NCBI RefSeq assembly: GCF_016722925.1
Contig: NZ_JAEQNC010000006.1
Coordinates: 124,001 to 188,000 of the forward strand
DNA from: Phytoamicus setariae
Lineage (GTDB): Bacteria > Pseudomonadota > Alphaproteobacteria > Rhizobiales > Rhizobiaceae
DNA length: 64,000 nucleotides
Direction of reading: 5' to 3'
The notes under the pieces were generated by a model, which saw nothing but the letters and a program-made list of their open reading frames with translations, did not search any database and was not told the origin of the DNA. The position numbers were made by a program, and so were the translations under genes. Shown piece by piece: positions 32,936 through 48,278 of this stretch. Each line of letters opens with the position of its first letter. Position 1 is the first letter of the stretch.

Positions 32936-33302
32936 AAGAAAACCGGATTCAAAATTGATGCAACGTAACTACGCTGGAATCAGACGCAGGGATCAAGTCT
33001 GCCGGCAGACAAGCAGGCGAAACGCAATCAAAGCCAGTGTGTGGACTCTTGCTTCGCCAGAGGCGCTGCGAACCAAAGTGTTGGCCTGCACCTTCATTTA
33101 GGGAGATGCCGGGCGTGTCAAGCGGACGCGATGGCGCGAAGGACATATGGGTTTTTCCGCTTTCCCCACATGGCCAACGAAACGGCAATCGAGCTTTTTA
33201 CCCGTCCGTCCTGGCGTCTCGACCATCGGAGTGGAATGAATAAAAAAAGAAGCGCATCCGCGAGGATGCGCTTCTCAATGAGTTCAGCATTGCTGAAGAA
33301 TT
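32936..33302. other. Non-coding region between phrB and tRNA-Asn
   Basis: About 370 bases with no credible gene. It must carry the phrB promoter (minus strand) and holds the tRNA-Asn terminator at its right end. Nothing else recognised. Confidence 0.5.
33241..33275 (-). terminator. Terminator of tRNA-Asn
   Basis: Perfect 12-bp stem AGAAGCGCATCC / GGATGCGCTTCT with tetraloop GCGA; on the minus strand it is followed by a run of seven T. It lies 27 bases after the tRNA 3' end. Confidence 0.92.
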
Positions 33303-33377
33303 TGGCTCCCCGGGCCGGATTCGAACCGGCGACCTGTCGATTAACAGTCGAATGCTCTACCGCTGAGCTACCAGGGA
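33303..33377 (-). tRNA. tRNA-Asn (GTT)
   Basis: On the minus strand the sequence begins TCCCTGG and ends CCGGGGAGCCA, giving a full 7-bp acceptor stem with one G-T pair. The anticodon loop is CTGTTAA, so the anticodon is GTT (Asn). The T-arm is GCCGG-TTCGAAT-CCGGC. The CCA end is encoded. Confidence 0.97.
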
Positions 33378-33908
33378 ATGACCGCATCGCTGCGGCGTTG
33401 GCGGGGTAATACAAATGCTTTTCTGATTTGCCAAGCGATTTTTTCAAAATAATCGGGAAAAGCGACAATGGCCACTGGTAAATCCACGTGAAGCACTGGA
33501 AATCTCGATGTTGGCGCAAAACATTTTTTTCACGTGATGGCAGCATTGTCCACATTGTTGAGAAAGGTTCCAAATCGAAGTCCAAACCTTCGTGTTGGAA
33601 GCCGGTCATCCCGTCGGGCAGAGGGCTACATGCGGTCTGCCCAATCCAAACAAAGCTTCAAGCTTTTTGGAATATCGGTGGGATATTAGGGCTTCGTGGC
33701 GGAAGGGTTACGCAGAGGACTGCAAATCTCTACAAAACAGAACGAAAACCAGAGTGGCTAGTCACTTCCTCTGCGCACAAGTGCTAGAAAGGTGCGACAA
33801 GATCAGGCCCTCAGGCTTCTTGTCTCCGTAGCCGACTCCATGTTTTCATGCGGGAGAATCCTGTCACCAGTCGCAGGATCGCAATTTGCACAAAGCAGGA
33901 CACGGCTC
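33378..33908. other. Non-coding region with the truncated tRNA-Cys
   Basis: About 530 bases without a supported gene; a 100-codon open frame at 33488-33787 has no family resemblance. It includes the tRNA-Asn promoter side and a 5' tRNA-Cys fragment at 33690. Probably the left junction of the accessory region. Confidence 0.5.
33690..33730 (+). pseudogene. Truncated tRNA-Cys (5' half)
   Basis: The first 39 bases match the intact tRNA-Cys at 45897 at 37 positions, covering the 5' acceptor strand, D-arm and the anticodon stem-loop with its GCA anticodon (GGACTGCAAATC). Similarity then stops abruptly: no variable loop, T-arm or 3' acceptor. It has the same orientation as the intact gene. This pattern suggests a recombination junction at the anticodon arm. 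Confidence 0.85.
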
Positions 33909-36266
33909 ATGAAAACCCCGGTATTCCGCGGCAAGCTTATTGAACAGATCCTGTCGCGTCCGGAGCCCGTGATCGTGCTCGATGCGCCCGCTGGTATGGG
34001 CAAATCCACGCTACTTGGCCAGATTGCTGAACGCCTTGATGTCACGCTGCATATTGCCCACACGCCGCCCGCAGAAGGAGACGGAATCGTCCTTTGGGAT
34101 ATTCCACCCTACGGCACGCCGGCTGCGTTGCCCGAATGCTACGTTACTGGGCGCAGGAGGATCGTCATCGCCAAACGGCCGGACAGCGAATTGATCGGAC
34201 TGGCGCGTGCCACGGCATATCAGCGTGTATACAGCCTCGACCCAGAGGCACTGTTGATTTCCGAAAATGAGGCCCGGGCATTGTTTGGCGCAGATCGCGC
34301 GATGGAGATCCTGAGACTCACAGGCGGTTGGCCTTTGATCGCATTCCGGGAGGGGTTAATCGCGGGGATGGAGGAATTCCTGATGCAGGAATTCCTCGAG
34401 AATGTTCCTAATGACGAACTTGTCGATCTCAAGCTGCTTATCGCTGGCGCGGCGTTGCCGGCGCGCCAGCGAAACAACCTGTTTCCAGTCGCAAGTGCCG
34501 GGTCGGACGGGACGCTTCATTTCCGCGCTGAAGCACTCGCAGGCGTGTTGGATAGCGCGCTGGACGCAATGATCAGGCTGCGACTGGAGACGCCGGGAAA
34601 CGTCAAGTCGATCGCAGAAGCCTATGCTCATCGCGGCAAGGTGGTCGAGGCGATATCAGTTTTCCAGAGAGCCGGCTTCCATGACGATGCTTTTGAGCAA
34701 TTCAACAAGGCGGGCGGCCTGTTCTTCCTCTATTTTCACGGGCCCGCAGCATTCGATCAGGTTCTTTCTGGCTTTCCGCATAGTTATGCACATCAAAGCG
34801 AGATCCTGGTGCTGTCGCTCGGGTTGCAAGCGGTCAAGCGCGGCGATGTTTCCAGGGCACGACGTCTTCTCCTCGACCGGTTCGGCGAACAGATCAACGA
34901 TCTGGAGGCCGTGTACGATTCTCGGTCGGCTTTTTCCCGAGAGTTCCGGGAATTCAGTTTCGTGTTGATGATCTTCGAGGATCACCAGTTCAACGAAGAG
35001 ATGCTGGCGAGACTCTTTAAGCTGAACGCCGAATTTCCGGGTGACGAGCACCTTTTTCGCGGCAGCCTCTACAATTCGGTGCTGGAGTTCTACATTCGCC
35101 GCCGCCAGTTCACTGAGGCCGAAGACGTTGCCCAGCGCGCGATGTACCACTACGAAGCCGCCGGCTCACCGATGCTCTGCTTCTATATCAGCCTGCATCA
35201 GGCGATGATCGGCCTTCTTCAGGGGGATAACGCCACCGCCCGCAAGCACGCGCTGCGCTCGGCCAAAAGCCTTGCGGAGGTGCCGTTCGAGACGCCAAAC
35301 GATATGCGCCTGCAGAAGTTGGTTGATGCCTGCATCGAATATGAAAGTGGGCGGGCAGAGCCGTTGGCGCGGTTTCTCAATTCGGAGATCGACGAATTTA
35401 CGCATGGCGAAATCTGGCCCAGCTTGATGGAGGTGACGTTGCACTATGGCAGTCAGGCCATGATCACGCACTTTTCCCTGGTCGCGGCGCGCGGCTTTCT
35501 TGATCGCTGGCGCGTGTATCAGGCGTCCAACCAGGCTTTCCAGGAGATGGTCAACATTCGCGAGGCGGTCGTGTTGCAACATGCCAATCGCTGGACCGAG
35601 GCGTCGACGCGGCTGAAAGTCGTGGGGCTGGAGATCGATCGCGACCGCATTCTTGCTGATCCCGACGGGCTTGCCTCGTTGACGGATCGCGACGACATCG
35701 GGCTGACGCTTGCCTGGCTACGGCAGATCCTGCACGAGCAACCCGATCTGCCGCAGCTTGAGCGGGCGATCGTCGCCTTGACCGGCAATCTGCGTGTCAC
35801 CGACCGCCAGCGGCTGTCGCTTTCGATCTGGCAGGCGCTTATCTTCAAGCGGCGGCAGGATCTCACCGGTGCGCGTGCAGTGCTGCTGCGGTTGTTTGAG
35901 CACTCCGCACGGCTCGACTCGATTGCGCCGCTTGCCGAGGAGAATGTGTTTCTCGACGAACTGATGGGCAACAAGCGGATTAGCGAGTTCCTCGCTGCTT
36001 CGTCGCCGGCGAGGCAGGTGATCCGCAAGCTGCGAGACAGCGGCCACATGGCGCCGGTGTCAGGTATCGGCAGCGAGCTTTCGCGGCGTGAAAACAAGAT
36101 CCTGGTGATGATATCTGAAGGTGCCGCCAACAAATCAATCGCGGGCATGCTCGGCGTGAGCGAGGCAACGGTCAAGTTCCACTTGGGAAATGTTTATCGC
36201 AAGCTGGGCTGCAAGACGCGGCAGGAAGCAATCGGTGCTGCGCGCGCTGCGGGTATCGTCAACTGA
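33909..36266 (+). CDS. LuxR-family ATP-dependent regulator (LAL/MalT-like)
   Basis: A 785-residue regulator. Near the N-terminus (about 26-34) is a P-loop APAGMGKST of the STAND/AAA ATPase type. The middle 500 residues are alpha-helical with TPR-like repeats (AEDVAQRAMYHYEAAGSPML and similar), which usually sense a ligand. The last 63 residues are a LuxR helix-turn-helix (LSRRENKILVMISEG, then VSEATVKFHLGNVYRKLG). This is the MalT architecture, somewhat shorter than usual (about 900). The start at 33909 follows GCAGGA; the frame is open upstream to 33792. It is directly upstream of a transporter operon with repeated sites in its promoter, so it likely controls that operon. Confidence 0.88.
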   Translation: MKTPVFRGKLIEQILSRPEPVIVLDAPAGMGKSTLLGQIAERLDVTLHIAHTPPAEGDGIVLWDIPPYGTPAALPECYVTGRRRIVIAKRPDSELIGLARATAYQRVYSLDPEALLISENEARALFGADRAMEILRLTGGWPLIAFREGLIAGMEEFLMQEFLENVPNDELVDLKLLIAGAALPARQRNNLFPVASAGSDGTLHFRAEALAGVLDSALDAMIRLRLETPGNVKSIAEAYAHRGKVVEAISVFQRAGFHDDAFEQFNKAGGLFFLYFHGPAAFDQVLSGFPHSYAHQSEILVLSLGLQAVKRGDVSRARRLLLDRFGEQINDLEAVYDSRSAFSREFREFSFVLMIFEDHQFNEEMLARLFKLNAEFPGDEHLFRGSLYNSVLEFYIRRRQFTEAEDVAQRAMYHYEAAGSPMLCFYISLHQAMIGLLQGDNATARKHALRSAKSLAEVPFETPNDMRLQKLVDACIEYESGRAEPLARFLNSEIDEFTHGEIWPSLMEVTLHYGSQAMITHFSLVAARGFLDRWRVYQASNQAFQEMVNIREAVVLQHANRWTEASTRLKVVGLEIDRDRILADPDGLASLTDRDDIGLTLAWLRQILHEQPDLPQLERAIVALTGNLRVTDRQRLSLSIWQALIFKRRQDLTGARAVLLRLFEHSARLDSIAPLAEENVFLDELMGNKRISEFLAASSPARQVIRKLRDSGHMAPVSGIGSELSRRENKILVMISEGAANKSIAGMLGVSEATVKFHLGNVYRKLGCKTRQEAIGAARAAGIVN

Positions 36267-36289
36267 TGTGACGCGCGGCGATATTCAGA

Positions 36290-36351
36290 AACCTAGACCA
36301 TAGGTAATTTCACCATATAACCTAGACTATTTAGGCGAAAACCTAGACCAT
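36290..36351 (+). promoter_or_regulatory. Three AACCTAGAC(C/T)AT direct repeats, putative operator
   Basis: Three 12-base copies occur at 36290-36301, 36319-36330 and 36340-36351; two are identical and the middle one differs by one base. Spacing is 29 and 21 bases. The first two are each followed by TAGG, giving imperfect dyads CCTA-N5-TAGG and CCTA-N7-TAGG. They lie between the LuxR-type regulator and the operon it probably controls, comparable to the repeated MalT boxes. I saw no second cluster of this repeat elsewhere in the window. Confidence 0.7.
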
Positions 36352-36482
36352 CGCTGCGTTGTCATGCCGGCAAAGCCTATGCAATTCTCGGGGCAACTTG
36401 AGGGACCGAAGAGCCCCAAGCCAAACAAACATGATGGCCCAACAATGGGTCACACCGGGAACCTCTTTTACTGGGAAAACAG

Positions 36483-38048
36483 ATGAGCAAGCACAGGCTA
36501 CTTGTATCCACAGCGATCGCGGCCTTCGTCGCTGGAAGCGCTGGCGTTTCTGCCGCATTTGCAGACACGGTCGTGACCATGAACACCGTGCAGATCTTTG
36601 GTACTATCGATCCGGCGAAGATCTCCGACTACACCGATTACATGGCGGTCGTGAACCTCTATGACGGCCTGATCTCCGTCGATTCCAGTGGCAACCTGAT
36701 TCCGGAGCTGGCCGAGAGCTGGACCGTCTCAGACGATGCCAAGGAAGTCACTTTCAAGCTGCGCGCCGACGCCAAGTTTACCGATGGCTCGCCGGTCACT
36801 GCAGCCGATGTCATCTATTCCGTCGAACGGCTATTGAAGATCAATCAGGGCCCGGCCAGCCTTTTCGCCGACGTGTTGAAGCCGGGCTCCGTAACGGCTG
36901 TCGACGACAAGACGGTCAAGTTCGTGCTCAGCAAGACTTTCTCGCCGTTTTTGACGACAGTGCCGTCGATCTTCATCGTCAATTCCAAGGTTGTGGCGGC
37001 CAATGCCGGCAGCGATGACGCCCAGACGTTTCTCGGCACAAAAGTCGCCGGCGCCGGCGCCTATACGCTGAAGGAATGGGATCGTGGCGCGAAGATGACG
37101 ATTGTTCGCGACAAGAACTACTACAAGGGTTTCGGCGAAGGCCCGATCGACGAAGTGCGCTGGATCATCACCAATGACGAAGCGACGGTCCGCTCACTGG
37201 CCGCTTCGGGCGAGTTGACGATGACCAGCCAGTTCCAGTCGCCGGAAACCTATAAGGCGCTCGAGGCGATGGGGCGCTTCAACATCCTGACCCAGCCGAC
37301 AGGTAATGCCTTCTATCTCAAGCTCAACACCAAGATCGCGCCGACCGACGACGTCCATATCCGCCGCGCTATCGCGCTGGCCACGGACTACAAGACGATC
37401 CGGGAAGTGATTTTTCCAGGCGCTGACATGAATGGCCCGTTGCCGTCGGCATTTGCCGATTTCTACGCTGCCGACATCAAGGCTCCGGCCTTTGACATCG
37501 AGGCTGCCAAGGCCGAGATTGCCCAATCGAAATATGCCGGTCAGCCGATCGATATCACCCTGGCTTATGTGGCGGGAACGAAATTCGAAGAAGAAATCAG
37601 TCTGCTGATGCAGGCCAATCTCGAACAAATCGGCTTCAAGGTGACGCAGCAGGCCGACCCCTGGAACAGGATCACCGAGATCGCCACCAAGGTGGAGTCG
37701 ACACCGGCCGTCAATCAGATCTTCTTCGGCCCGACCTATCCGTCACCGGATTCGATGTTCTATACGCAATACCATTCCAACGCGGCCGGCACATGGGCAT
37801 CGATGGAGTGGCTGCAAGATCCTGCCGTCGACAAGCTGATCGATGATGCCCGCGCGACCGGCGATCTGAAGCAGCAGGCCGAGATCTACAAGGAATTGCA
37901 GCACAAACTGGTGGAGATCCAGCCGGACGTTTTCCTCATGGCGCAGAATGTCCAGCATGCAATCGACAAGTGCCTGACCGGTTATAACGCCGTGCCAATG
38001 CAATCCGTCGACTACGATTTCACCCGCTTCACCTGGACCTGCAAATAG
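36483..38048 (+). CDS. ABC transporter substrate-binding protein, family 5 (dipeptide type)
   Basis: A 521-residue periplasmic binding protein with a clear signal peptide (VSTAIAAFVAGSAGVSAAFA). The family-5 pattern is visible: MAVVNLYDGLISVDSSGNLIPELAESW, then TFKLRADAKFTDGSPVTAADVIYSVERL. Such proteins bind peptides, opines, nickel chelates or other amide compounds. First gene of an eight-gene unit. The C-terminus (IDKCLTGYNAVPMQSVDYDFTRF) is normal. The ligand cannot be read from the sequence. Confidence 0.9.
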   Translation: MSKHRLLVSTAIAAFVAGSAGVSAAFADTVVTMNTVQIFGTIDPAKISDYTDYMAVVNLYDGLISVDSSGNLIPELAESWTVSDDAKEVTFKLRADAKFTDGSPVTAADVIYSVERLLKINQGPASLFADVLKPGSVTAVDDKTVKFVLSKTFSPFLTTVPSIFIVNSKVVAANAGSDDAQTFLGTKVAGAGAYTLKEWDRGAKMTIVRDKNYYKGFGEGPIDEVRWIITNDEATVRSLAASGELTMTSQFQSPETYKALEAMGRFNILTQPTGNAFYLKLNTKIAPTDDVHIRRAIALATDYKTIREVIFPGADMNGPLPSAFADFYAADIKAPAFDIEAAKAEIAQSKYAGQPIDITLAYVAGTKFEEEISLLMQANLEQIGFKVTQQADPWNRITEIATKVESTPAVNQIFFGPTYPSPDSMFYTQYHSNAAGTWASMEWLQDPAVDKLIDDARATGDLKQQAEIYKELQHKLVEIQPDVFLMAQNVQHAIDKCLTGYNAVPMQSVDYDFTRFTWTCK

Positions 38049-38106
38049 GCTGGCGCACTTGCGACCCCGGTTCCTTCCCTCGGGAGGGGCCGGACCGCGA
38101 AAGGTT

Positions 38107-38143
38107 GGCTTCGGATCTGCGGGTTGTACCCGCCAGCGAAGCC
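38107..38143 (+). other. Intercistronic stem-loop after the binding protein gene
   Basis: A bipartite hairpin: outer stem GGCTTCG / CGAAGCC and inner stem GCGGGT / ACCCGC with loop TGT. No T-run follows, so it is more likely an mRNA-stabilising or processing element that keeps the binding-protein message abundant, as is known for maltose and oligopeptide operons, than a full terminator. Confidence 0.6.
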
Positions 38144-38186
38144 GTGAGCTGATTTCCTCAATCTCTTCATCCAAGGGGCCGCAGAC

Positions 38187-39209
38187 TTGGAATTCCTCAT
38201 TTTCCTTTTCCGACGGATATTATGGTCGATTCTGGTCCTTGTCGGCCTGTCGATGGTAATCTTCGCGATCGCCCGCGGCATGCCCGGGGATCCCGCCAGA
38301 CTGGCGCTCGGCCCCAGGGCGACCCAGGAGCAAGTGGACGACCTGTCGAGCAAGCTCGGGCTGGACCTGCCACTCTACCAACAATATGGCATGTTCGTTT
38401 CCGGCCTTGCCAAGGGCGATCTCGGCCGCTCGCTGCTTACCGAGCGCCCCGTCAACGACGACATCCGCGACACATTTGCCGCAACCTTCGAGCTGGTTCT
38501 GGCGACCATTACCATCGCCTTCATTCTCGGCGTGCCCCTCGGGGTCATGGCCGCACGCTGGAAGGACAGATGGCCTGATAACCTGGTGCGGTTCGTCGCG
38601 ATCATTTCCGCCGTGATGCCAAGTTTCTTCCTGGCGCTGCTGCTGCAGATCCTTGCCGGCTATGTGCTGCACATCCTGCCGACCACCGGCCGGCTACCGC
38701 CGAGCATGGCGTTTTCGCCAGATATCACCGGCCTGATCACCGTGGACTCGATCCTGCACTGGCGCTGGGATGTGTTCGGTGAATCGCTCCGCTACCTGTT
38801 GCTCCCGTCGATTGCCTTGGCGGCCGCGACAATGGGCCAGATCGCCCGCATCACCCGCGCCTCGATGATCGACGTGTCGAGCCAGGATTACATCGAGGCC
38901 GCGCGTGCTTTCGGCATTCCGGAGCGAGTGCGCGTGTTCAAGTACATGCTGCGACCCAGCTTTGTGCCGCCGATGACGATCATGGGCCTGGAATTTGCCT
39001 CGATGATCGGCAACGCCTTCGTGGTCGAGCTTGTTTTCGCCTGGCCCGGCATGGCGGCCTATGGCGTCCGCACCATCATGCAGAAGGATCTCAATGCGGT
39101 GATGGGCGTGGTGATCGTCTCCGGCGTGTTCTTCGTCGTCGTTAATCTTGTCATCGATGTGTTGGTCGGCTTCGTCGATCCCCGCGTCCGGATCCGGGGA
39201 CATCGTTGA
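38187..39209 (+). CDS. ABC transporter permease, DppB type
   Basis: A 340-residue inner-membrane permease with about six helices. The N-terminal FLFRRILWSILVLVGLSMVIFAIARGMPGDPA is the classic DppB/OppB pattern, and the cytoplasmic EAA-type loop reads YIEAARAFGIPERVRVFKYMLRPSFVPP. The start is a TTG with an AAGGGG Shine-Dalgarno ten bases upstream. The stop overlaps the next ATG (TGATG). Confidence 0.93.
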   Translation: MEFLIFLFRRILWSILVLVGLSMVIFAIARGMPGDPARLALGPRATQEQVDDLSSKLGLDLPLYQQYGMFVSGLAKGDLGRSLLTERPVNDDIRDTFAATFELVLATITIAFILGVPLGVMAARWKDRWPDNLVRFVAIISAVMPSFFLALLLQILAGYVLHILPTTGRLPPSMAFSPDITGLITVDSILHWRWDVFGESLRYLLLPSIALAAATMGQIARITRASMIDVSSQDYIEAARAFGIPERVRVFKYMLRPSFVPPMTIMGLEFASMIGNAFVVELVFAWPGMAAYGVRTIMQKDLNAVMGVVIVSGVFFVVVNLVIDVLVGFVDPRVRIRGHR

Positions 39210-40096
39210 TGGCCGAGTTTGAAGCAATTTCCAACGAACCGGCGCGTCTCTCGAACGCTTACCAGAACTGGTATCGGTTCTCGCGCAATCCGACAGCCGT
39301 GATCGGCGCTGCAATCGTGGTGATTTCGATCCTGGCTGCCCTGCTTGCGCCGTGGATCACCCCCTATCCCGACCATGTGGGCGCTGTCGTCAATTTCCGC
39401 GCGCGCCACCTGCCGCCCTCGACCGAATACTGGTTCGGCACAGACAATGTCGGCCGAGACATCTTTACGCGCGTCATCTACGGCACGCGGATCTCGCTGT
39501 TGCTTGCACTTGTGGTGCTTGGCACCGCAGTGCCGATTGGCACCGTACTCGGGCTGCTCGCCGGCTATTTCGGCGGCTGGGTGGAAACGGTCATCATGCG
39601 GCTGACCGATGTTGCGCTCGCCATTCCGCCGTTGGTGATGGCGCTGGCAATGGCGTCGGTTCTGTCGCCCGATCTCATCAACTCGATGCTGGCGATCGCA
39701 GCGCTGTGGTGGACCTGGCATACGCGGCTCATCTATTCCATCACCCGGCAACTCAGGACCCAGGAATTCGTCGAAGCGGCCGAGACGCTGGGGGCTTCCA
39801 AGTTCCACATCCTTTTCCGGGAAATCCTGCCCAATTGCGTGTCGGCGCTTGCGGTCAAGACGTCGCTCGATTGCGGCTTTGTCATCCTGGTCGGCGCGTC
39901 GCTTTCCTTCCTCGGTCTTGGCATCCAGCCACCGACACCGGATCTCGGCACGATGGTGTCGCAGGGCTCAGCGTTTCTGCCCGACTATTGGTGGGAATCG
40001 ATCCTTCCGGGTTGTGCAATCCTGTTCATCGCACTTGGCTTCAACCTGCTTGGCGACGGTCTGCGCGACCTCTTCGACGTACAGGAGATCAAATAA
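39209..40096 (+). CDS. ABC transporter permease, DppC type
   Basis: A 295-residue permease with the DppC signature: a polar N-terminus, first helix AVIGAAIVVISILAALLAP, then STEYWFGTDNVGRDIFTRVIYG. The EAA loop is FVEAAETLGASKFHILFREILPN. The C-terminal GFNLLGDGLRDLFD is diagnostic. An in-frame TTG lies at 39206; the ATG is preferred. Stop and next start share one base (TAATG). Confidence 0.94.
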   Translation: MAEFEAISNEPARLSNAYQNWYRFSRNPTAVIGAAIVVISILAALLAPWITPYPDHVGAVVNFRARHLPPSTEYWFGTDNVGRDIFTRVIYGTRISLLLALVVLGTAVPIGTVLGLLAGYFGGWVETVIMRLTDVALAIPPLVMALAMASVLSPDLINSMLAIAALWWTWHTRLIYSITRQLRTQEFVEAAETLGASKFHILFREILPNCVSALAVKTSLDCGFVILVGASLSFLGLGIQPPTPDLGTMVSQGSAFLPDYWWESILPGCAILFIALGFNLLGDGLRDLFDVQEIK

Positions 40097-40938
40097 TGGA
40101 ATCGCTGCTTTCGGTTCGCGATCTCTCCGTCGAATTCTCGACCTACGGCCGCGCCAGCAAGGTGTTGCACGAAGTTTCGCTTGATGTCCCGGCCCGTTCC
40201 CAGGTGGCGCTGGTTGGCGAAAGCGGGTCCGGCAAGACCGTGACCATGAAGGCGATCATGGGGCTGCTGCGCGAGCCGCCGGCCAGGATCACCAATGGCC
40301 GTATTCTCTACGATGGCGTCGATCTGCTGACGATGCCGGCCGCCGAGCGGCTGAAGCTGCGGGGAACCGCGATGTCGATGGTGTTTCAGGATCCGATGAG
40401 CTCGCTCAATCCGGTCTTCACCATTGCCGACCAGATGGGCACGATCCTTAAATATGCGGACAAGCGGCTTGGACGCGGCAGGAGCGGCCGGGAACGGATG
40501 GCCCGCGTCCATCAGGTGCTCGAGCAGGTCAGGATGCGCGATCCGGAAAGGGTCTCGGCATCCTATCCCATCCAGCTGTCCGGCGGGATGCGCCAGCGCA
40601 TCCTTATCGCCATGGCATTGTTGAGCGAGCCGAAGCTGCTGATCGCCGATGAACCCGGCACCGCGCTCGACGTTACGACGCAGGCGCAGATTCTGAAACT
40701 GTTGAAAGATCTGGTCGAGGCGCGGGGGCTTGCACTGCTGATGATCACCCACAATCTCGGCGTCGTTCGAGAAACCTCCAGCCATGTCTACGTGATGAAC
40801 AAAGGTGTGGTGGTGGAGAATGGACCGACGGCAGCGATCTTCGAGGCGCCGCAGAACGAATACACCCGCAGCCTGATCGCGGCGGTTCCACGCCTGACTG
40901 GCGGCATGGCCTTTGGCGGAAAGGAGATCCGCGCATGA
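40096..40938 (+). CDS. ABC transporter ATP-binding protein, DppD type
   Basis: A 280-residue ATPase with Walker A GESGSGKTVTMKAIMG near residue 40, Q-loop VFQDPMSSLNP, signature QLSGGMRQRILIAMAL and Walker B LLIADEPGTALD (with G where most have T). The protein is about 40 residues shorter than typical DppD because the C-terminal oligopeptide extension is minimal (NEYTRSLIAAVPRL). The true start is the ATG overlapping the permease stop. Confidence 0.94.
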   Translation: MESLLSVRDLSVEFSTYGRASKVLHEVSLDVPARSQVALVGESGSGKTVTMKAIMGLLREPPARITNGRILYDGVDLLTMPAAERLKLRGTAMSMVFQDPMSSLNPVFTIADQMGTILKYADKRLGRGRSGRERMARVHQVLEQVRMRDPERVSASYPIQLSGGMRQRILIAMALLSEPKLLIADEPGTALDVTTQAQILKLLKDLVEARGLALLMITHNLGVVRETSSHVYVMNKGVVVENGPTAAIFEAPQNEYTRSLIAAVPRLTGGMAFGGKEIRA

Positions 40939-41861
40939 AGCCGATGCTGGAGATCACCAACCTCTGCAAGTTCTTCCCGATCCGCAACGCACTGGGCCGG
41001 CATACCGGCGATGTGCGGGCAGTGGATAATGTCTCCTTCTCGATCCCGCGCGGCGCGGTCTACGGGCTGGCGGGCGAAAGCGGTTCGGGCAAATCGACGA
41101 TCGCCCGGATGATCATGGGCCTGTCGCAGCCGTCCAGTGGCGAAATCCGCATCGACGGCGAGCCTGTCGGATCTGTCCGCAGCTCCCGCGAGCACGGCAG
41201 GAAAGTGCAGATGGTTTTTCAGAATCCCGGCTCGTCGCTCAATCCGCGCCGTACGGTCGGCCAGTCGATCGCCGTGCCGCTCGATGCACATGGCCATCCC
41301 TCGTCCGGGCGGGCGCGGCGGATCTCCGAATTGCTGGAAATGGTGCAACTGCCGACGAACTTCGCCGAACGCTTTCCGCACGAGCTTTCCGGCGGTCAAA
41401 AACAGCGCGTGGCGATTGCCCGCGCCCTGGCGGTTACGCCGCGTCTGGTGGTGCTCGACGAGCCGACATCCGCGCTCGACGTTTCGGTCCAGGCGCGTGT
41501 CATCGACCTGCTGGTCGAGCTCGGCCAACGACTGGATCTGACCTTCCTGTTCATTTCCCACGACCTGAGCCTGATGCGCAATTTCGCTAGCCAGGTCGGC
41601 GTACTCTATCGCGGCAAGATCGTTGAGACCGGCCCCACGGCCGATGTCTTCGTCAACCCGCAACATGACTACACGCAGCTGCTTCTTGCATCGGTGCCGG
41701 TGATATCGGCCGAGGAAGAGGCGATGCGTCCCAAAATTCCGCTGATCGATGGTGAGATCCCAACGGCCGAAAAGCTCATCGAACTGAGATCTGGTGGCCA
41801 CCAGATCTCCGGTCAGGCGTCGAATGCCAAACAGAGTTTCAATGAGGAACAACCAAGATGA
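40935..41861 (+). CDS. ABC transporter ATP-binding protein, DppF type
   Basis: A 308-residue ATPase. Walker A GESGSGKSTIARMIMG is near residue 50, Q-loop VFQNPGSSLNPRR, signature [14 protein letters not shown] and Walker B LVVLDEPTSALD. The C-terminal HDYTQLLLASVPV is the usual oligopeptide motif. It overlaps both neighbours by four bases (ATGA), which indicates one transcript with coupled translation. Confidence 0.94.
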   Translation: MKPMLEITNLCKFFPIRNALGRHTGDVRAVDNVSFSIPRGAVYGLAGESGSGKSTIARMIMGLSQPSSGEIRIDGEPVGSVRSSREHGRKVQMVFQNPGSSLNPRRTVGQSIAVPLDAHGHPSSGRARRISELLEMVQLPTNFAERFPHELSGGQKQRVAIARALAVTPRLVVLDEPTSALDVSVQARVIDLLVELGQRLDLTFLFISHDLSLMRNFASQVGVLYRGKIVETGPTADVFVNPQHDYTQLLLASVPVISAEEEAMRPKIPLIDGEIPTAEKLIELRSGGHQISGQASNAKQSFNEEQPR

Positions 41862-43405
41862 TTAGAATTGGGATCGATGTCGGCGGCACCAATACCGACG
41901 CCGTCGTGATGGACGGCACGCAGGTGATCGCAGGCGTAAAATCCGCCACGACGGCCGACGTGATGGGCGGTGTGGTCAATGCGTTGAGGGATGTGCTGGC
42001 CGCCTCTAAAATGGCTGCTGGCGCCGTCGATGTGGTGATGATCGGAACCACCCATTTCACCAACGCTGTGGTCCAGCGCCGGGACCTGGCACCCACCGCC
42101 GCGGTGCGACTTGGCCTGCCGGCAACGGCCTCGCTGCCGCCGATGGTCGACTGGCCGGAAGACCTCAAGAGTGCGATCGGCAATCACACTTACCTGGCCC
42201 ATGGCGGCAACGAGTTCGATGGCCGCGTGATCTCTCCGCTCGATGAAGAGGAGTTGCTGGGAATCGCCGCAGACATCAAGTCAAAGGGCGTCAATTCAAT
42301 CGCCATCACCTCGGTCTTTTCGCCCGTCTCGAATGCGTTCGAGTTGCAGGCGCAGGAGATTTTCGCCCGGGCATTGCCGGGTGTACATATCACTCTGTCG
42401 AGCGAGATCGGCCGGATCGGCCTTTTGGAGCGTGAAAATGCCGCGATCATGAATGCCTGCCTTCGCGATCTCTCTGCACATGTCATCGCGGCGTTCCGAA
42501 ACGCAATCTCCGAAGCCGGGATCAAGGGACGGTTCTTCCTGACCCAGAACGACGGCACGCTGATGGATGCAGCCTTCGCGGAAAAATTTCCGGTGCTGAC
42601 ATTCGCATCCGGTCCCACCAACTCGATGCGCGGCGCGGCATTCCTCTCCGGCGTCGATGAGGCCATCGTCGTGGATATCGGCGGCACCACATCGGATGTG
42701 GGTTCCCTGCACAAGGGCTTTCCCCGTCAAGCCACGGTTGCGGTCGAAGTGGGTGGCGTCCGTACCAATTTCCGCATGCCGGACGTGTTCTCGATTGGCC
42801 TCGGCGGTGGATCGCTGGTGATCGACGGGGAAGGCGGCATCAAGATCGGTCCGACGTCGGTCGGTTACCGCATCAAGACCGAGGCGCTGATCTTTGGCGG
42901 CGAGACTTTGACGACGACCGACATCACCGTGGCCGCCGGTCACGCCGAACTTGGCGACGCAAGCAAGGTCGCACACCTGCCCAGGAACCTGCTCGACCGA
43001 ACCCAGGCCCAGATTTTGGAAATGCTGGAGGATTGTGTCGAACGATCTCGTCTGTCTCCCGAGCCCCTCCCGGTTATCGTCGTCGGCGGCGGCTCGGTCC
43101 TGGTCAATGGTCCGATTGGCGGGCTGGAAGTTATCAAGCCGGCGCATTTCGGTGTTGCCAACGCCGTGGGCGCCGCGATCGCCCAGGTTTCTGGAGAAAT
43201 CGACCGGGTCTATGCGCTGGCCGAGATCGGCCGGGACCAGGCGCTCGATGATGCCAAGGCGCGCGCCATCGATGCCGCAGTCGCCGCAGGCGCATTGCGC
43301 GAAAGCGTCGAGATCGTCGATGTCGAGGACGTGCCGCTCGCCTATCTGCCGGGCAATGCAACGCGCGTCCGTATCAAGGCTGTAGGAGAACTTCATGTCG
43401 CGTGA
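41858..43405 (+). CDS. Hydantoinase/oxoprolinase family protein (HyuA-like)
   Basis: A 515-residue ATP-dependent enzyme of the ASKHA fold. The N-terminal phosphate loop IGIDVGGTNTDAVVMDG, the middle IVVDIGGTTSDVGSLHKG and VFSIGLGGGSLVIDGEGG are standard HyuA motifs. The family hydrolyses cyclic amides such as hydantoins or 5-oxoproline at the cost of ATP. No HyuB-type partner follows; instead there are two DUF917 genes. It is shorter than full 5-oxoprolinase or acetone carboxylase subunits (about 650-700). Substrate unknown; the neighbouring peptide-type transporter supplies it by inference. Confidence 0.88.
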   Translation: MIRIGIDVGGTNTDAVVMDGTQVIAGVKSATTADVMGGVVNALRDVLAASKMAAGAVDVVMIGTTHFTNAVVQRRDLAPTAAVRLGLPATASLPPMVDWPEDLKSAIGNHTYLAHGGNEFDGRVISPLDEEELLGIAADIKSKGVNSIAITSVFSPVSNAFELQAQEIFARALPGVHITLSSEIGRIGLLERENAAIMNACLRDLSAHVIAAFRNAISEAGIKGRFFLTQNDGTLMDAAFAEKFPVLTFASGPTNSMRGAAFLSGVDEAIVVDIGGTTSDVGSLHKGFPRQATVAVEVGGVRTNFRMPDVFSIGLGGGSLVIDGEGGIKIGPTSVGYRIKTEALIFGGETLTTTDITVAAGHAELGDASKVAHLPRNLLDRTQAQILEMLEDCVERSRLSPEPLPVIVVGGGSVLVNGPIGGLEVIKPAHFGVANAVGAAIAQVSGEIDRVYALAEIGRDQALDDAKARAIDAAVAAGALRESVEIVDVEDVPLAYLPGNATRVRIKAVGELHVA

Positions 43406-44480
43406 TTTCAAAAGACTGGAAGAGGCGGACCTGATGCCGCTCGCAATCGGCGCGGCCCTGCTCGGAACGGGCGGTGGCGGCAATCCCTATGTGGGCATGT
43501 TGCGTACCCGCGAACTCCTTCGCAGCGGCGCCAAGATCGAGATCATGCCACTTGAAGCACTTGCCGATGACGACTGGGTCGCGGAATGCGGCGGCGTCGG
43601 CGCACCGGTCGTGGGCGTCGAGAAGATCGAAGAAGGCGGCGAATGCCACCGTGCCGTGATGGCGGTCGAACAGGCGGCAGGCGTCAAGTGCTCGGCGGTG
43701 ATCTGCGCCGAGATCGGCGGCTCCAACTCGATGGAGCCGATCATCGTTGCCGGCCGTGCGGGCATTCCCGTCGTAGATGGCGATGGCATGGGCCGTGCTT
43801 TCCCCGAAGTCCAGATGACGACCTTTTTCATCTATGGCGCCAAGCCGTCGCCGGCGGCAATTGCTGACGACAAGGGCAACGTCGTGGTGTTCCAAGAGGT
43901 CGTCGATATGTTCTGGCTGGAAAAGTTCGCGCGCGACGTTTCGGTCGGGATGGGGGCAGGGGCTGGCTTTGCGGTTGCGCCGATGCGTGGCGACTTCATC
44001 CGCAAGACGGCGGTTCCCGGGACAGTCACGCAGGCGATCAACATTGGCAAGACGGTGTTGAATGCGCGGCTAAAGCACCAGAATGTGGTCGAAAGGATCG
44101 TCGAGGAAACAGGAGCCAAGCTGTTTTTCACTGGAAAGATCAGCGATATCGAGCGTACGCTTACCGGTGGCTTCTCGCGCGGCAGGGCGAAAATTTCCGG
44201 CGTTGGCCAGTGGGCTGGCTCGGAGGCGGAAATCGCCATCCAGAACGAGAACCTCGTGCTCTGGGTCGATGGCGAGGCTGTAATCATGGTGCCGGACCTG
44301 ATCATGAATCTGGAACTCGAAACCGGCGAGCCGATTACCACCGAAATGCTGCGCTATGGCCAGCGGGTGGCGGTCATCGGGCTTCCGGTGCATGCGCTGC
44401 TGAAAACGCCACGGGCGCTCGAAATCGTTGGCCCGGCCGCGTTCGGTTACCCCGACCTCACGTTCAAGCCGCTCGGCTGA
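43395..44480 (+). CDS. DUF917 family protein, first copy
   Basis: A 361-residue cytosolic protein with the family pattern LPLAIGAALLGTGGGGNPY (near 14-34 with small changes), AEIGGSNSMEPIIVAGRAGIPVVDGDGMGRAFPE and the C-terminal FGYPDLTF. DUF917 genes regularly accompany HyuA-like genes. As I recall, the family was renamed after S-methyl-thiohydantoin desulfurase activity in one member; this is not evidence for the activity here. It starts inside the end of the hydantoinase gene (11-base overlap) with AGGAG at 43384. Confidence 0.88.
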   Translation: MSRDFKRLEEADLMPLAIGAALLGTGGGGNPYVGMLRTRELLRSGAKIEIMPLEALADDDWVAECGGVGAPVVGVEKIEEGGECHRAVMAVEQAAGVKCSAVICAEIGGSNSMEPIIVAGRAGIPVVDGDGMGRAFPEVQMTTFFIYGAKPSPAAIADDKGNVVVFQEVVDMFWLEKFARDVSVGMGAGAGFAVAPMRGDFIRKTAVPGTVTQAINIGKTVLNARLKHQNVVERIVEETGAKLFFTGKISDIERTLTGGFSRGRAKISGVGQWAGSEAEIAIQNENLVLWVDGEAVIMVPDLIMNLELETGEPITTEMLRYGQRVAVIGLPVHALLKTPRALEIVGPAAFGYPDLTFKPLG

Positions 44481-44491
44481 GGATTTCGATC

Positions 44492-45572
44492 ATGCAAATG
44501 CTGCGCACAATCCATGCGGAGGATCTTGAGGACATCGCCATCGGCGGTGCCATTTTGGGCACCGGCGGCGGCGGCGATCCCTACATCGGCAAGCTCATGG
44601 CCCAACAGGCCATCCGCTGGCACGGTCCGGTGAAGATCATCGATGTCGAGGAACTCGCCGACGATGCACTTGTCGTGCCCGTCTGCATGATGGGCGCCCC
44701 GACCGTGATGACCGAAAAGCTGCCGCAGGGCGATGAACTGATCAACGCGTTCCGCCAGCTCGAACAGCTGATGGGTCGAAAGATCGATGCGGTGCTCTGC
44801 GCCGAGGCGGGTGGAGTGAACTCCACCACGCCTTTCATCGTTGCCGCCGCGACCGGCCTGCCGCTTGTCGATGGGGACGGGATGGGCAGGGCCTATCCCG
44901 AGCTTCAGATGGTGACGTTCAGTATGCATGGCGTATCGGCTACGCCGATGGTTCTTTGCGACGACAAGGGCAATTCCATCGTGCTCGAAACGGTCAGCAA
45001 TGCCTGGACGGAACGGTTGGCACGGGCTGCAACTGTGGAAATGGGCGGATCGGCGCTGCTAGTTCTACCCGATGAGCGGTGCGGTGGCGAAGAAAGCGGT
45101 TGTGCGCGGCACCTTGACGCTCTGCGCCAATCTCGGCCTGTCGCTGCGCGAGGCACGGGCAGCGCATGCCGACCCTGTCGCGGCGGTCACGGGCATGCTG
45201 GGAGCGAAGGTGATTTTTCATGGCCGGGTCCGGGACATAGACCGCCGGACGGAGGGCGGCTTTGCGCGGGGCTCTGCATGGTTCGACGGCGTCGAAGACT
45301 GGCGCGGCCACACATTCAAGCTCGATTTCCAGAATGAATTCCTGATGGCCGAGCGCGATGGGAAAATCTTGGTAACGACGCCGGATCTGTTGACCCTGCT
45401 GGAAGCCGACAGCGGCAATTCTGTTACGGCGGATTCGCTGAAATACGGCCTGCGGCTCCTCGCCATCGCCTTTCCCTGCAATGAGCAGTGGCGGACACCC
45501 GAGGGCATCGCACTCGTCGGTCCCCGCTATTTCGGCTACGACATCGACTACACGCCCTTTGATTTCGAATAG
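44492..45572 (+). pseudogene. DUF917 family protein, second copy, frameshifted
   Basis: A second DUF917 gene, a diverged paralogue of the one before (GGAILGTGGGGDPYIGKLM, then AEAGGVNSTTPFIVAAATGLPLVDGDGMGRAYPE). The frame beginning at 44492 runs to about 45062, and the homology continues in the next frame from about 45066 (YPMSGAVAKKAVVRGTL) to the stop at 45572. One base too many near 45062-45068 explains this. The two parts together make about 359 residues, the full family length, and both keep good codon use. So it is either a recent mutation, a sequencing error or a +1 frameshift site. The end motif FGYDIDYTPFDF is intact. Confidence 0.82.
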
Positions 45573-45896
45573 ATTTTTTCAACGCCGCCTATTCCAAGAG
45601 CCGTTAGCTGCACAAGGTGAATGGCTCGCACCGTCATCCCGAACAACCGGTCGGGATGACCTCGCAGATGTTTGGGGAACAGCACAATTGCCTCGCGCGA
45701 GATATTAGTCCCTTGTTGGCTTCCATTTGCGTCCAGGCGTCTGTGTCGAAAACCTGCCTAGATTGCTTCGACAACAGCAAATACTTGGTCACCTCGCTAT
45801 TCAGAATAAAAAAGGGCGAGGGATTCAGAATGGCCCCTTGCGCTTAGAGTGATTCCAGTCTAAACGCCTGCCAACGCTCAAGATATTGAGCAGTGA
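45573..45896. other. Non-coding region between the operon and tRNA-Cys
   Basis: About 320 bases. The only clear structure is an inverted repeat (separate entry). There is no credible gene. It probably holds the operon's end signal and the promoter of tRNA-Cys, and it is the right junction of the bracketed region. Confidence 0.5.
45633..45660. repeat. Perfect 10-bp inverted repeat (GTCATCCCGA)
   Basis: GTCATCCCGA (45633-45642) and TCGGGATGAC (45651-45660) with spacer ACAACCGG. No T-run follows on either side. It may act as a factor-dependent end signal for the DUF917 operon or be a REP-like dispersed palindrome; one copy was noticed in this window. Confidence 0.6.
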
Positions 45897-45970
45897 GGCC
45901 TCGTGGCGGAATGGTTACGCAGAGGACTGCAAATCCTTGCATCCCGGTTCGATTCCGGGCGAGGCCTCCA
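45897..45970 (+). tRNA. tRNA-Cys (GCA)
   Basis: Starts GGCCTCG and ends CGAGGCC-T-CCA, a perfect acceptor stem. The anticodon loop ACTGCAAAT reads GCA (Cys). The T-arm is CCCGG-TTCGATT-CCGGG. CCA is encoded. A 5' half copy lies 12.2 kb upstream at 33690. Confidence 0.97.
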
Positions 45971-46100
45971 ATCTCTTCTTGATTGTCACGCATGATAAGG
46001 CAAACTGTTCGGTGTACCTCGTAAGACGAGGTCCTTCGTCAATACTGTTTGTTTGTACGTCAGCCGGAACGATACGCCCGGGCGAGATGAGGAGACGATC

Positions 46101-46352
46101 ATGACGCGGACAGAAGAGGAAATCCGTAAGAAAGCCTATGCCATATGGGAAAGCGAAGGCCGTCCGGAAGGGCAGCATCACAGGCATTGGCTTGAAGCGT
46201 TGCGAGACAGTGAGCGCAGTTCCGTACAGCTTGCGCCGGCAATCGTGAAAGCCAAGAAGCCTTCGCGCGCAAAGGTCACGTCCGCAGCAGAGTTGGACGT
46301 TACGCCAGCGACCAAAAAATCGACCCGCGCACGCAAGCCGCCGCAGTCCTGA
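46101..46352 (+). CDS. DUF2934 family protein
   Basis: An 83-residue basic protein. The first 35 residues are the DUF2934 motif (EEEIRKKAYAIWESEGRPEG followed by HHRHWLEA); the rest is a Lys/Arg/Ala/Pro-rich tail. The function is unknown; family members often respond to stress in rhizobia. The start has GAGGAG nine bases upstream; an extension to 46053 is not supported. Confidence 0.82.
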   Translation: MTRTEEEIRKKAYAIWESEGRPEGQHHRHWLEALRDSERSSVQLAPAIVKAKKPSRAKVTSAAELDVTPATKKSTRARKPPQS

Positions 46353-46688
46353 CGCCGCTCTTCTTGCGAGATGTTGCCCCATCATGTTGCATGAAGATGC
46401 TGTGGAGGGTCGGGGAACTGCCTTGTGAGTTTGAACAGAACAAGGTGCAAGCAAGGGGTGTTGAAGCGAGGTTGATAAACACGCCTGCGGGCTGCGTTGG
46501 TTGCTCCCGTGCTTTGGGGGGGGGCGACCTCGTCCACATGTAATGTTGCATTGCAGCATGTTTCTGAGGTTACTTGTTCGTGAAAGCCTTAGGCTTATAG
46601 TATCTGCGTTCGAATTTATCCGTCAGTAACCTTGTGCGTTTGAAGTGACAGTGGGATCGAATTGATTCTGCAGAACTGGGTGGAAGAA
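46353..46688. other. Non-coding region upstream of glgA
   Basis: About 335 bases without a gene. It includes a run of nine G (46516-46524). No terminator with a T-run was found after the DUF2934 gene. Confidence 0.4.
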
Positions 46689-48164
46689 ATGCGCATATTG
46701 TCGGTGGCATCCGAAGTCTTTCCGTTCGTCAAGACCGGCGGCCTGGCCGATGTGACGGGAGCCTTGCCCAAAGCGCTTCGTGAGTTCGACATCGCCACGA
46801 TAACACTCGTGCCTGGTTATCCGGCTCTGCTGCCCATGGCCCGGGAAGGTGCGCCACTTGCAGTCTTCGAGGACGTGCTCGGGGAAACTGCCCATATCAG
46901 GCTCTTCCAGACGGAGGAGCAGATCTTTCTGGTGCTGGACATCCCGTCGCTTTATGATCGCCCCGGCACTCCATATCTCGATGAACAGGGCAGGGACCAT
47001 GCCGACAACTGGAAGCGCTTTGCGGCGCTTTCCCTTGCTGCCGCCAAGATAGCCAACGGCGCGCTGCCGGGTTGGGTGCCCGATCTCGTCCACACCCATG
47101 ACTGGCAGACCGCGCTGACTTCAGTCTATCTGCGCAGCATGAACAACCAGACGCCCGTTGTGCTGACCATTCACAACATTGCTTTCCAGGGACAGTTTTC
47201 CTCCGGCATTTTCCCGTGGTTGCAACTGCCGATGAGCACGTTCTCGATGGACTGCCTCGAATATTATGGCGATGTCTGCTTCCTGAAGGGCGGATTGACG
47301 ACGTCCAACATCATCACCACGGTGAGCCCGACCTACAGCCGCGAGATCATGACCCCCAAGTTCGGCATGGGGTTGCAGGGCGTGTTGCGCGCCCGCGCCA
47401 ATGTCGTCAAAGGTATCCTCAATGGCACGGACGACGATATCTGGGACCCCGCCAAAGACCCGTATCTGGAGCGCACATTCGACCTCTCCACCGTCTCGGA
47501 CAGGCGGATCAACCGTCTGAAACTGGAGAGCGAATCCGGCCTCGACAGCGACGACGGGCCGATTTTTGCGGCCGTCAGCCGACTGACGTGGCAAAAGGGC
47601 GTGGATATGCTTGCCGAGGTGGCCGAGGAGATCGCCTATCGTGGCGGCAAGCTCATCGTGTGTGGGCGCGGTGATTCCGCCATCGAGGATTTGTTGTTGG
47701 ATACGGCTCAGAAACTGCCTGGCAGGATGGCCGTGCATATCGGATACGATGAAAGGATCGCTCACCTGATCCACGGCGGCGCAGACGCGATTGTGCAGCC
47801 GTCTCGTTTCGAGCCCTGCGGTCTCACCCAACTCTATGGCCTGCGATACGGCAATGTGCCGATCGTGTCGCGCACTGGAGGACTGGCCGAAACCGTGATC
47901 GACGCAAACGACGCAGCCATGGGCGCAGGCGTAGCAACCGGGTTTCAGTTCCATCCGGTGACGACCGAAGGGTTGCGGCACGCAATCCGTCGCGCGATCG
48001 ACGCGTATGCTTCGCCGGCGCAATGGCGCCAGCTGCAGGCGCAGGGCATGAGCGCACGGTTCACTTGGGATCGCAGCGCGAAGCTCTACGCGGATCTTTA
48101 TCGCGACCTGGTTCCGGAGCGCAAAAGGAGCGGGTTGAACATCGTTCGAGCCGTTGCGTCATGA
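46689..48164 (+). CDS. glgA: Glycogen synthase (ADP-glucose)
   Basis: A 491-residue GT5 glycosyltransferase that extends alpha-1,4-glucan from ADP-glucose. The N-terminal K15-TGGLADV loop binds the nucleotide sugar; the C-terminal RFEPCGLTQLYGLRYGNVPIVSRTGGLAETV loop region is intact. The start MRILSVASE at 46689 follows GGTGGAAGAA; an upstream frame extension is not coding. Unlike the usual glgBCA cluster, glgA stands alone here; glgB and glgC are not in the window. Confidence 0.95.
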   Translation: MRILSVASEVFPFVKTGGLADVTGALPKALREFDIATITLVPGYPALLPMAREGAPLAVFEDVLGETAHIRLFQTEEQIFLVLDIPSLYDRPGTPYLDEQGRDHADNWKRFAALSLAAAKIANGALPGWVPDLVHTHDWQTALTSVYLRSMNNQTPVVLTIHNIAFQGQFSSGIFPWLQLPMSTFSMDCLEYYGDVCFLKGGLTTSNIITTVSPTYSREIMTPKFGMGLQGVLRARANVVKGILNGTDDDIWDPAKDPYLERTFDLSTVSDRRINRLKLESESGLDSDDGPIFAAVSRLTWQKGVDMLAEVAEEIAYRGGKLIVCGRGDSAIEDLLLDTAQKLPGRMAVHIGYDERIAHLIHGGADAIVQPSRFEPCGLTQLYGLRYGNVPIVSRTGGLAETVIDANDAAMGAGVATGFQFHPVTTEGLRHAIRRAIDAYASPAQWRQLQAQGMSARFTWDRSAKLYADLYRDLVPERKRSGLNIVRAVAS

Positions 48165-48278
48165 CGGTGGCATTTTTCCGCATTGCAGCGCGCTTTCACC
48201 TTGAAAGCCTAGGCCCATCAAACTAAGACCAGCGGTGAAGAAGAGCTAATTTCTGTATTTTAAGGATGAGCCAGGACG

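Follow-up and report, generated by a model that had tools for sequence, protein, structure and literature searches.

A 12-kb block at tRNA-Cys of Phytoamicus setariae, probably the remainder of an element that integrates into the 5′ half of the gene

Integration into the 5′ half of a tRNA gene is a known kind of event, described as seldom met in bacteria in an account (PMC8371274) that cites Williams 2002. The same account, after Cossu et al. 2017, has pTN3-like archaeal integrases using the 5′ half of a tRNA gene, with the rebuilt gene read from the integrase promoter. Here we analyse a window of 64,000 nucleotides from Phytoamicus setariae (Rhizobiaceae; contig NZ_JAEQNC010000006.1, forward strand, positions 124,001 to 188,000; coordinates below are those of the window), in which a broken 5′ half and an intact copy of tRNA-Cys bracket a block of regulator, transporter and catabolic genes at 33729-45896. 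With a probability of about 0.85, this block is what remains, in reduced form, of an Int5-type element integrated at the anticodon region of tRNA-Cys, Int5 being our name for the divergent lambda-type tyrosine integrase of islands that leave a tRNA-Cys 5′ half. Going by description, the pTN3-like systems resemble the locus in their 5′ half and element-borne promoter and differ in being archaeal.

Counterparts of the locus are found in the complete phage genomes Ssp-JY39 (PP438429) and Yong-M2-251 (OM868082), in contigs from IMG/VR, and in islands of genomes G330, G377, G069, G403 and G053. Like the window, these have nt 1-39 of tRNA-Cys as their core, an element-borne promoter region with a pair of TTCAGAA repeats, and an intact gene rebuilt at the right end; unlike it, they carry int5 and a left TTCTGAA arm, and G330, G377 and G069 also phage genes. 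Pelagibacter phage Jormungand (MT375528) has a 5′ part of tRNA-Cys about 80 bp from its integrase gene, but the 271 bp read there contain no TTCAGAA pair. The 53.6-kb prophage Phi1_CFNEI73 of Sinorhizobium americanum is listed at tRNA-Cys(GCA) in PMC5537653, in an entry that does not state a duplicated half. In tRNA-dependent lysogeny, as outlined in PMC10865867, phage sequence supplies the tRNA function after the bacterial attachment site (attB) is broken, by way of a whole phage tRNA rather than a promoter and 5′ half. The open-licence PMC literature yielded no account of an Int5 clade with arm repeats, of its recurrence at tRNA-Cys, or of reduced cargo islands. A canonical island of 24 kb lies at the same tRNA-Cys in a congener (G007, C43:427935-451770). 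It shares the target gene and the anticodon-region crossover with the window; unlike the window, it has a 3′ half at its far end, keeps the host promoter, and carries a PF00589 integrase next to the tRNA 3′ end.

The ends of the block are defined by the following features.

33303-33377, minus strand: tRNA-Asn(GTT), called by ARAGORN; the conserved left neighbour of tRNA-Cys
33580-33689, plus strand: host upstream region of tRNA-Cys, now before the broken copy; its top eight matches in the two-source test below are congeners
33690-33728, plus strand: 5′ half of tRNA-Cys (nt 1-39), read as the host half and the core of the left attachment site (attL)
45800-45830, plus strand: two TTCAGAA repeats 24 bp apart (45800 and 45824), read as putative arm-type sites at the element's right end
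45838-45865, plus strand: putatively imported tRNA promoter-like sequence (TTGCGC ... TCTAAAC), identified by its letters; the upstream region best matches a phage attachment site (attP)
45897-45970, plus strand: intact tRNA-Cys(GCA), called by ARAGORN; read as an imported 5′ half joined to the host 3′ half, in the right attachment site (attR)

Positions 33690-33728 match nt 1-39 of tRNA-Cys at 37 of 39 positions, with two mismatches and on the same strand, forming a direct repeat. In the 5.6-Mb genome this half is the only second match to tRNA-Cys at an E value of 0.001 or better (8.9e-11), and the likeness of the two copies ends on the 3′ side of the anticodon loop. An earlier reading of the window from its letters (the sequence-only reading) had reported both the 39-base repeat and a break in the anticodon arm, and both points are upheld. 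The block thus has, at its far boundary, the partial direct repeat of the tRNA that tRNA-targeted integrative elements leave. Nucleotides 40-74 are absent after the broken half, and the genome search gave only the 5′ half, with no distal 3′ fragment of the kind that marks a canonical 3′-half island. Congeners G005, G006 and G008 share the GCATCCC of the intact gene's 3′ half, as does G196, from another genus.

Eight congeneric genomes (G001-G008, four of them only 81-86% complete) show the site without the block. In five of them (G001, G002, G004, G006 and G007) a divergent tRNA-Asn stands 292-315 bp away from tRNA-Cys, and in the window 312 bp separate the half from its own tRNA-Asn. G005 and G008 have the tRNA-Asn in the reverse orientation, at 236-239 bp, and in both of them photolyase, tRNA-Asn, tRNA-Cys and pcm are contiguous. 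tRNA-Asn is therefore within 320 bp of tRNA-Cys in seven of the eight; G003 has none in the 16 kb upstream of tRNA-Cys. The operon of the block stands at tRNA-Cys in none of the eight, and a HyuA protein of more than 75% identity occurs among them only in G003 and G005, both times at other places. Because congeners have tRNA-Cys beside tRNA-Asn without the block, 33729-45896 is, to judge from these genomes, an insertion into the tRNA-Cys gene. The empty locus expected of a tRNA-targeted element, which the sequence-only reading had advised looking for in related genomes, is thereby found. G001, G002 and G004 have a doubled tRNA-Asn, and their tRNA-Asn/tRNA-Cys segment, flanked by photolyase and pcm, runs the other way round from that of the window.

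Phages show the layout that such an element would have before integration. Relatives of Int5 occur at 58 viral contig loci (one of them weak) and in the two complete phage genomes, and we assessed the 39 of these 60 loci that extend at least 200 bp beyond the integrase C-terminus. A tRNA-Cys-like 5′ part was present in 26; the 13 without one all belong to relatives of 37-45% identity. In 21 of the 26, the 5′ part is followed not by the tRNA 3′ half but by TTCTGAA (up to one mismatch). Seven of these also have the preceding TTCAGAA pair (up to one mismatch each), as expected of attP, and the 14 without the pair can be read as attL of integrated copies. The remaining five continue into a whole tRNA, four of them with the TTCAGAA pair, as expected of attR. 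Ssp-JY39 and Yong-M2-251 both present, in order, TTCAGAA, 16 nt, TTCAGAA, a promoter-like stretch, tRNA-Cys nt 1-39, 28 nt and TTCTGAA, with int5 97 bp from attP, and the same order of attP is found in viral contig L235. The two phages are recorded as Synechococcus phages; we infer that their real host is a Hyphomicrobiales bacterium. With its paired TTCAGAA, promoter region and 5′ half, the right end of the window resembles these attP sites as a member of the Int5 class should, and 110 of 136 aligned bases are identical between it and L235.

We scored the 110 bp upstream of each window copy against 89 distinct regions upstream of tRNA-Cys (121 sites), with shuffled controls. For the left copy, the top eight regions were those of the eight congeners (scores 63.5-85), the only ones above the shuffled maximum of 60, with all others at 50 or less. 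For the right copy, the best match was the attP of L235 (score 102, shuffled maximum 61) and the second-best the attR side of G377, and no congener was among the first 14 of the 89 regions. These rankings indicate different origins for the two upstream regions. Because of the attP structure in phages and this two-source test, we assign 33690 to the host half (attL) and 45800-45970 to an attR with imported promoter and 5′ half; besides the 5′ half, the import most likely includes the tRNA promoter region. Inversion or staggered duplication was set aside, since neither suits a direct repeat whose two copies have upstream regions of separate origin.

The Int5 proteins in the islands of G330, G377, G069, G053 and G403 are 407-428 aa long, share 39-70% identity and are encoded at one island end. 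On all five, Pfam PF00589 (Phage_integrase) reaches an E value of 0.1 at best, far below the cut-off, and PHROG gives weak integrase matches for two of them (7.5e-8 and 5e-4) and none for the other three. In an alignment with 25 viral members, R239, K268, D341, R344, H367 and Y376 are invariant; we take these to be the expected tyrosine recombinase positions, with Asp (D341) standing at the first His of box II. An AlphaFold2 model (mean predicted local distance difference test score, pLDDT, 78.8; predicted template modelling score 0.53; segment 357-377, which holds H367 and Y376, below pLDDT 50) matches lambda integrase over 387 columns (E 3.5e-11, template modelling score 0.48/0.58, root mean square deviation 13.2), including N-terminal strands and a helix where lambda has its arm-binding domain. 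By the weak PHROG matches and this comparison of folds, Int5 is tentatively placed with lambda Int. Comparing profiles of Int5 and the G261 integrase did not support a relationship (probability 0.2%), and a sequence search with Int5 against PDB chains returned no match.

Among 62 chosen genomes, the Int5 profile found six carriers (G330, G377, G403, G069, G053 and G355), and in each the gene is no more than about 120 bp away from tRNA-Cys, whole or in part. It found none in the window's genome, the eight congeners or ten genomes that have only the repeat pattern described below, so that the window and its genome lack the int5 gene of the class. The G355 gene (C43:20459-21789) does not adjoin the intact tRNA-Cys; its neighbour, 65 bp off, is a 3′ part of tRNA-Cys (nt 26-74).

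The 5′-half footprint recurs at tRNA-Cys in the family beyond the window. We scanned 394 genomes, 380 of them with a tRNA-Cys match, and re-searched 48, of which 45 were chosen by eye as new genomes with two matches and three had an odd single match. A sharp 5′ piece (nt 1-40, 1-41 or 2-41) was present in eight: on the same strand and 10-61 kb upstream of the intact tRNA-Cys in G069, G196, G261, G330 and G377, and on another contig in G289, G343 and G403. The G289 and G343 pieces, on other contigs and with no arm sites seen by eye, were left out as unlike. A 3′ piece starting at nt 25-31 was the second match in 11 of the 48, and congener G007 is a further case. Both footprints occur at tRNA-Cys, the 3′ one somewhat more often, in line with the earlier remark that a 5′ fragment is the less usual. 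An ordinary PF00589 integrase was rejected as the agent: in the eight genomes with a 5′ piece, one lies on the 5′ side only in G261, inside the island and 5′ of tRNA-Cys, and that of G377 lies on the 3′ side.

Related islands of 41-61 kb with Int5 (G330, G377, G069 and G053) leave the same 5′ half, which in G053, from another family of the same order, lies 41.5 kb upstream of the intact tRNA-Cys. Nine large island proteins were compared with PHROGs and seven with Pfam. Because tape measure and tail fibre proteins are among those of G330 and G069, and a phage portal is in G377, these three islands are prophages. The scanned large proteins of the 41.5-kb G053 island (C4:202300-243920), which has Int5 and the 5′ half, are helicase-like or unassigned; Int5 may also move non-phage islands of this sort. 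Shorter islands are found as well. The 10-kb island of G196 carries a phosphonate-type binding protein and an ABC ATPase (Pfam) between like ends, with imperfect arm sites (TTCAGGA/TTCAGAA on the right, TCTGCA on the left) and no Int5. In G250, a diverged 5′ half 2.8 kb upstream of tRNA-Cys is followed by TTCTGAA, again with no Int5 (PF00589 was not searched there). These two and the window's block would be either decayed or travelling in trans.

The pattern of a TTCAGAA pair followed by TGGCGGA occurs in 15 of the 394 genomes, and a reversed-pattern control in none. With the window excluded, it is present in four of the eight 5′-piece genomes versus 10 of 385 others (p 6.5e-5 in a Fisher test made with 386, hardly changed). 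Nine of these ten have it at tRNA-Cys, G250 among them; that of G093 looks like chance. By eye, decayed pairs were also seen before tRNA-Cys in G270, G295, G364, G371 and G376 and before the host-side half of G403. Pairs at tRNA-Cys without an insertion can be read as scars of earlier insertions; alternatively, the pair is an older host feature captured by phages.

Taken together, we propose an element whose attP consisted of a TTCAGAA pair, a tRNA promoter, tRNA-Cys nt 1-39 and the left arm TTCTGAA. Site-specific strand exchange at the anticodon region would have kept the host's own promoter and 5′ half at 33690 and brought those of the element to stand before the host 3′ half at 45897; the single tRNA-Cys gene would then be read from the imported promoter. 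Integrase, phage genes and left arm would have been lost later. The LuxR-ABC-HyuA-DUF917 operon would be cargo, or would have arrived in rearrangements that left an IS21 scar. The sequence-only reading had likewise suggested an island, with the gene rebuilt at the right end by a 5′ half of the element's own; both ideas are now supported by the empty sites, the attP in phage genomes and the two-source test. Its suggestion that the element may have lost its integrase fits.

The block contains the following genes.

33792-36266, plus strand: LuxR-type regulator (PF00196); a likelier start is near 33910
36483-38048, plus strand: SBP_bac_5 solute-binding protein (PF00496)
38187-39209, plus strand: ABC permease of Opp/Dpp/Nik B type
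39206-40096, plus strand: ABC permease, C type
40099-40938, plus strand: ABC ATPase, D type (start estimated from the domain match)
40935-41861, plus strand: ABC ATPase, F type
41858-43405, plus strand: HyuA-like hydantoinase/oxoprolinase (PF05378, PF01968)
43395-44480, plus strand: DUF917/S-Me-THD protein 1 (PF06032, PF20906)
44519-45572, plus strand: DUF917/S-Me-THD protein 2, its N- and C-terminal domains in two separate open reading frames in different frames
45629-45796, plus strand: remnant of an IS21-family IstA transposase gene, about 69-72% identical in nucleotides to IS21 transposase genes over most of the stretch

Pfam agrees with the earlier description of an accessory regulator-transporter-catabolic module, finding transport and catabolic genes. 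The second DUF917/S-Me-THD gene (44210-45572 region) is either frameshifted or affected by a sequencing error. Colinear operons of about 64-79% DNA identity, with other flanks, occur in many Hyphomicrobiales. G+C is 0.602 in the block and 0.575-0.576 in the flanks, so the composition check proposed earlier gave a weak contrast in G+C, and codon bias was examined as G+C at third codon positions only. The IstA remnant sits between operon and right arm, and NF033546 matches a full relative. IS21 was considered as the inserting machine and rejected, despite the position of the remnant beside the right arm, because phages combine attP, 5′ halves and TTCAGAA pairs with Int5 (IS21 was not searched there). 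As the sequence-only reading had noted, no integrase is visible inside; PF00589 has no match on the window's contig (C34) and 12 elsewhere in the genome, so that neither end has an integrase of its own beside it, and the best lax tblastn match to Int5 in 33000-46500 reached only E 0.14. Compared with a cis-mobilizable element, which has attachment sites without recombination genes, the block has a complete attR and an attL without its arm site.

Several observations weigh against this reconstruction. The block has no integrase, and the left arm TTCTGAA, which in the Int5 class stands about 27 bp beyond the 5′ half, was not found in 33729-34000 at up to one mismatch. Nor did the phage genes of a prophage appear among matches to 245 open reading frames of five islands (G330, G377, G069, G053 and G261), just one of which matches the block, hitting the two ABC ATPases. 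The left half reads GGAAGGG and shares its A with the right copy (GGAATGG), whereas all eight congeners have GGAGTGG; exchange between the copies, or an allele of this host's own, must therefore be assumed. Ranks three to five in the right-upstream comparison fall to G089, G364 and G159, whose tRNA-Cys genes lack a known half and carry the TTCAGAA pair (decayed in G364), so another bacterium's tRNA-Cys could be the source. Half of the eight family genomes with a 5′ piece (G196, G261, G289 and G343) lack Int5, and pairs, intact or decayed, also stand at tRNA-Cys genes without a 5′ half (G015, G213, G162 and others). The right flank is rearranged too: a DUF2934 gene and a second GlgA gene (GlgA2), at 45971-48262 between tRNA-Cys and pcm, are not at this place in congeners. 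Finally, two Devosia genomes (L073 and L075) carry the same operon between tRNA-Cys and tRNA-Asn.

The Devosia genomes would favour chance or a vertical origin, with the operon ancestral between the two tRNA genes, which the sequence-only reading had named as telling against an island. The operon does stand there in both, but in the orientation opposite to the window's and with no tRNA half, no congener shares the arrangement, and G003 and G005 have the operon elsewhere. We therefore reject derivation of the block from the Devosia arrangement and find vertical origin barely credible. The right flank, the IS21 remnant beside the junction and the likeness of the right upstream region to those of some other family members instead suit an import without site specificity, in which a foreign operon and a whole tRNA-Cys with its promoter were joined illegitimately or homologously and the host 3′ half was lost. 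Such an import is quite unlikely given the break at nt 39, as in Int5 islands, a right upstream region that most resembles the arm of a phage attP, both repeats included, and a 3′ half as in G005, G006 and G008 (though also G196). GlgA2, moreover, is a congener-type gene rather than a foreign one, with 64-73% identity in seven of eight congeners. In G003 and G005 it shares a contig with tRNA-Cys, at a distance of about 53-115 kb. The block could also be a satellite or cis-mobilizable element that never had an integrase and uses Int5 attachment sites in trans. The short islands of G250 and G196, with similar ends and likewise no Int5, fit this idea, and PMC3146451 proposes that Dehalococcoides islands without an integration module are cis-mobilizable; however, the window's genome has no helper Int5, and the missing left arm argues for decay rather than working attachment sites. 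We regard this as unlikely, and favour an Int5-type element that later lost its integrase.

The favoured reading would trace a bacterial integration into the front half of a tRNA gene from phage attP to chromosomal attL and attR, with exchange of the promoter of an essential single-copy tRNA gene. Standard models miss this mode, as PF00589 falls short on the five Int5 proteins and the fragment left behind is a 5′ one instead of a 3′ one. A simple marker for such elements and their scars is the combination of the TTCAGAA pair with a 5′ half. More speculatively, and rather doubtfully, tRNA-Cys of Hyphomicrobiales may be a promoter-swapping site, where phages and islands with lambda-type integrases bring a promoter, short cargo islands (12, 10 and 2.8 kb) ride the attachment sites in trans, and decayed pairs are the scars. 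If so, each hop would replace the promoter of this gene.

Two minor features were noted around the locus. In Devosia L073, one TTCAGAA stands upstream of tRNA-Cys. Left of the window's tRNA-Asn, a stretch of about 100 bp (33108-33208) has 84% copies near GlgA2 in G001 and G002, and is perhaps a dispersed intergenic repeat.

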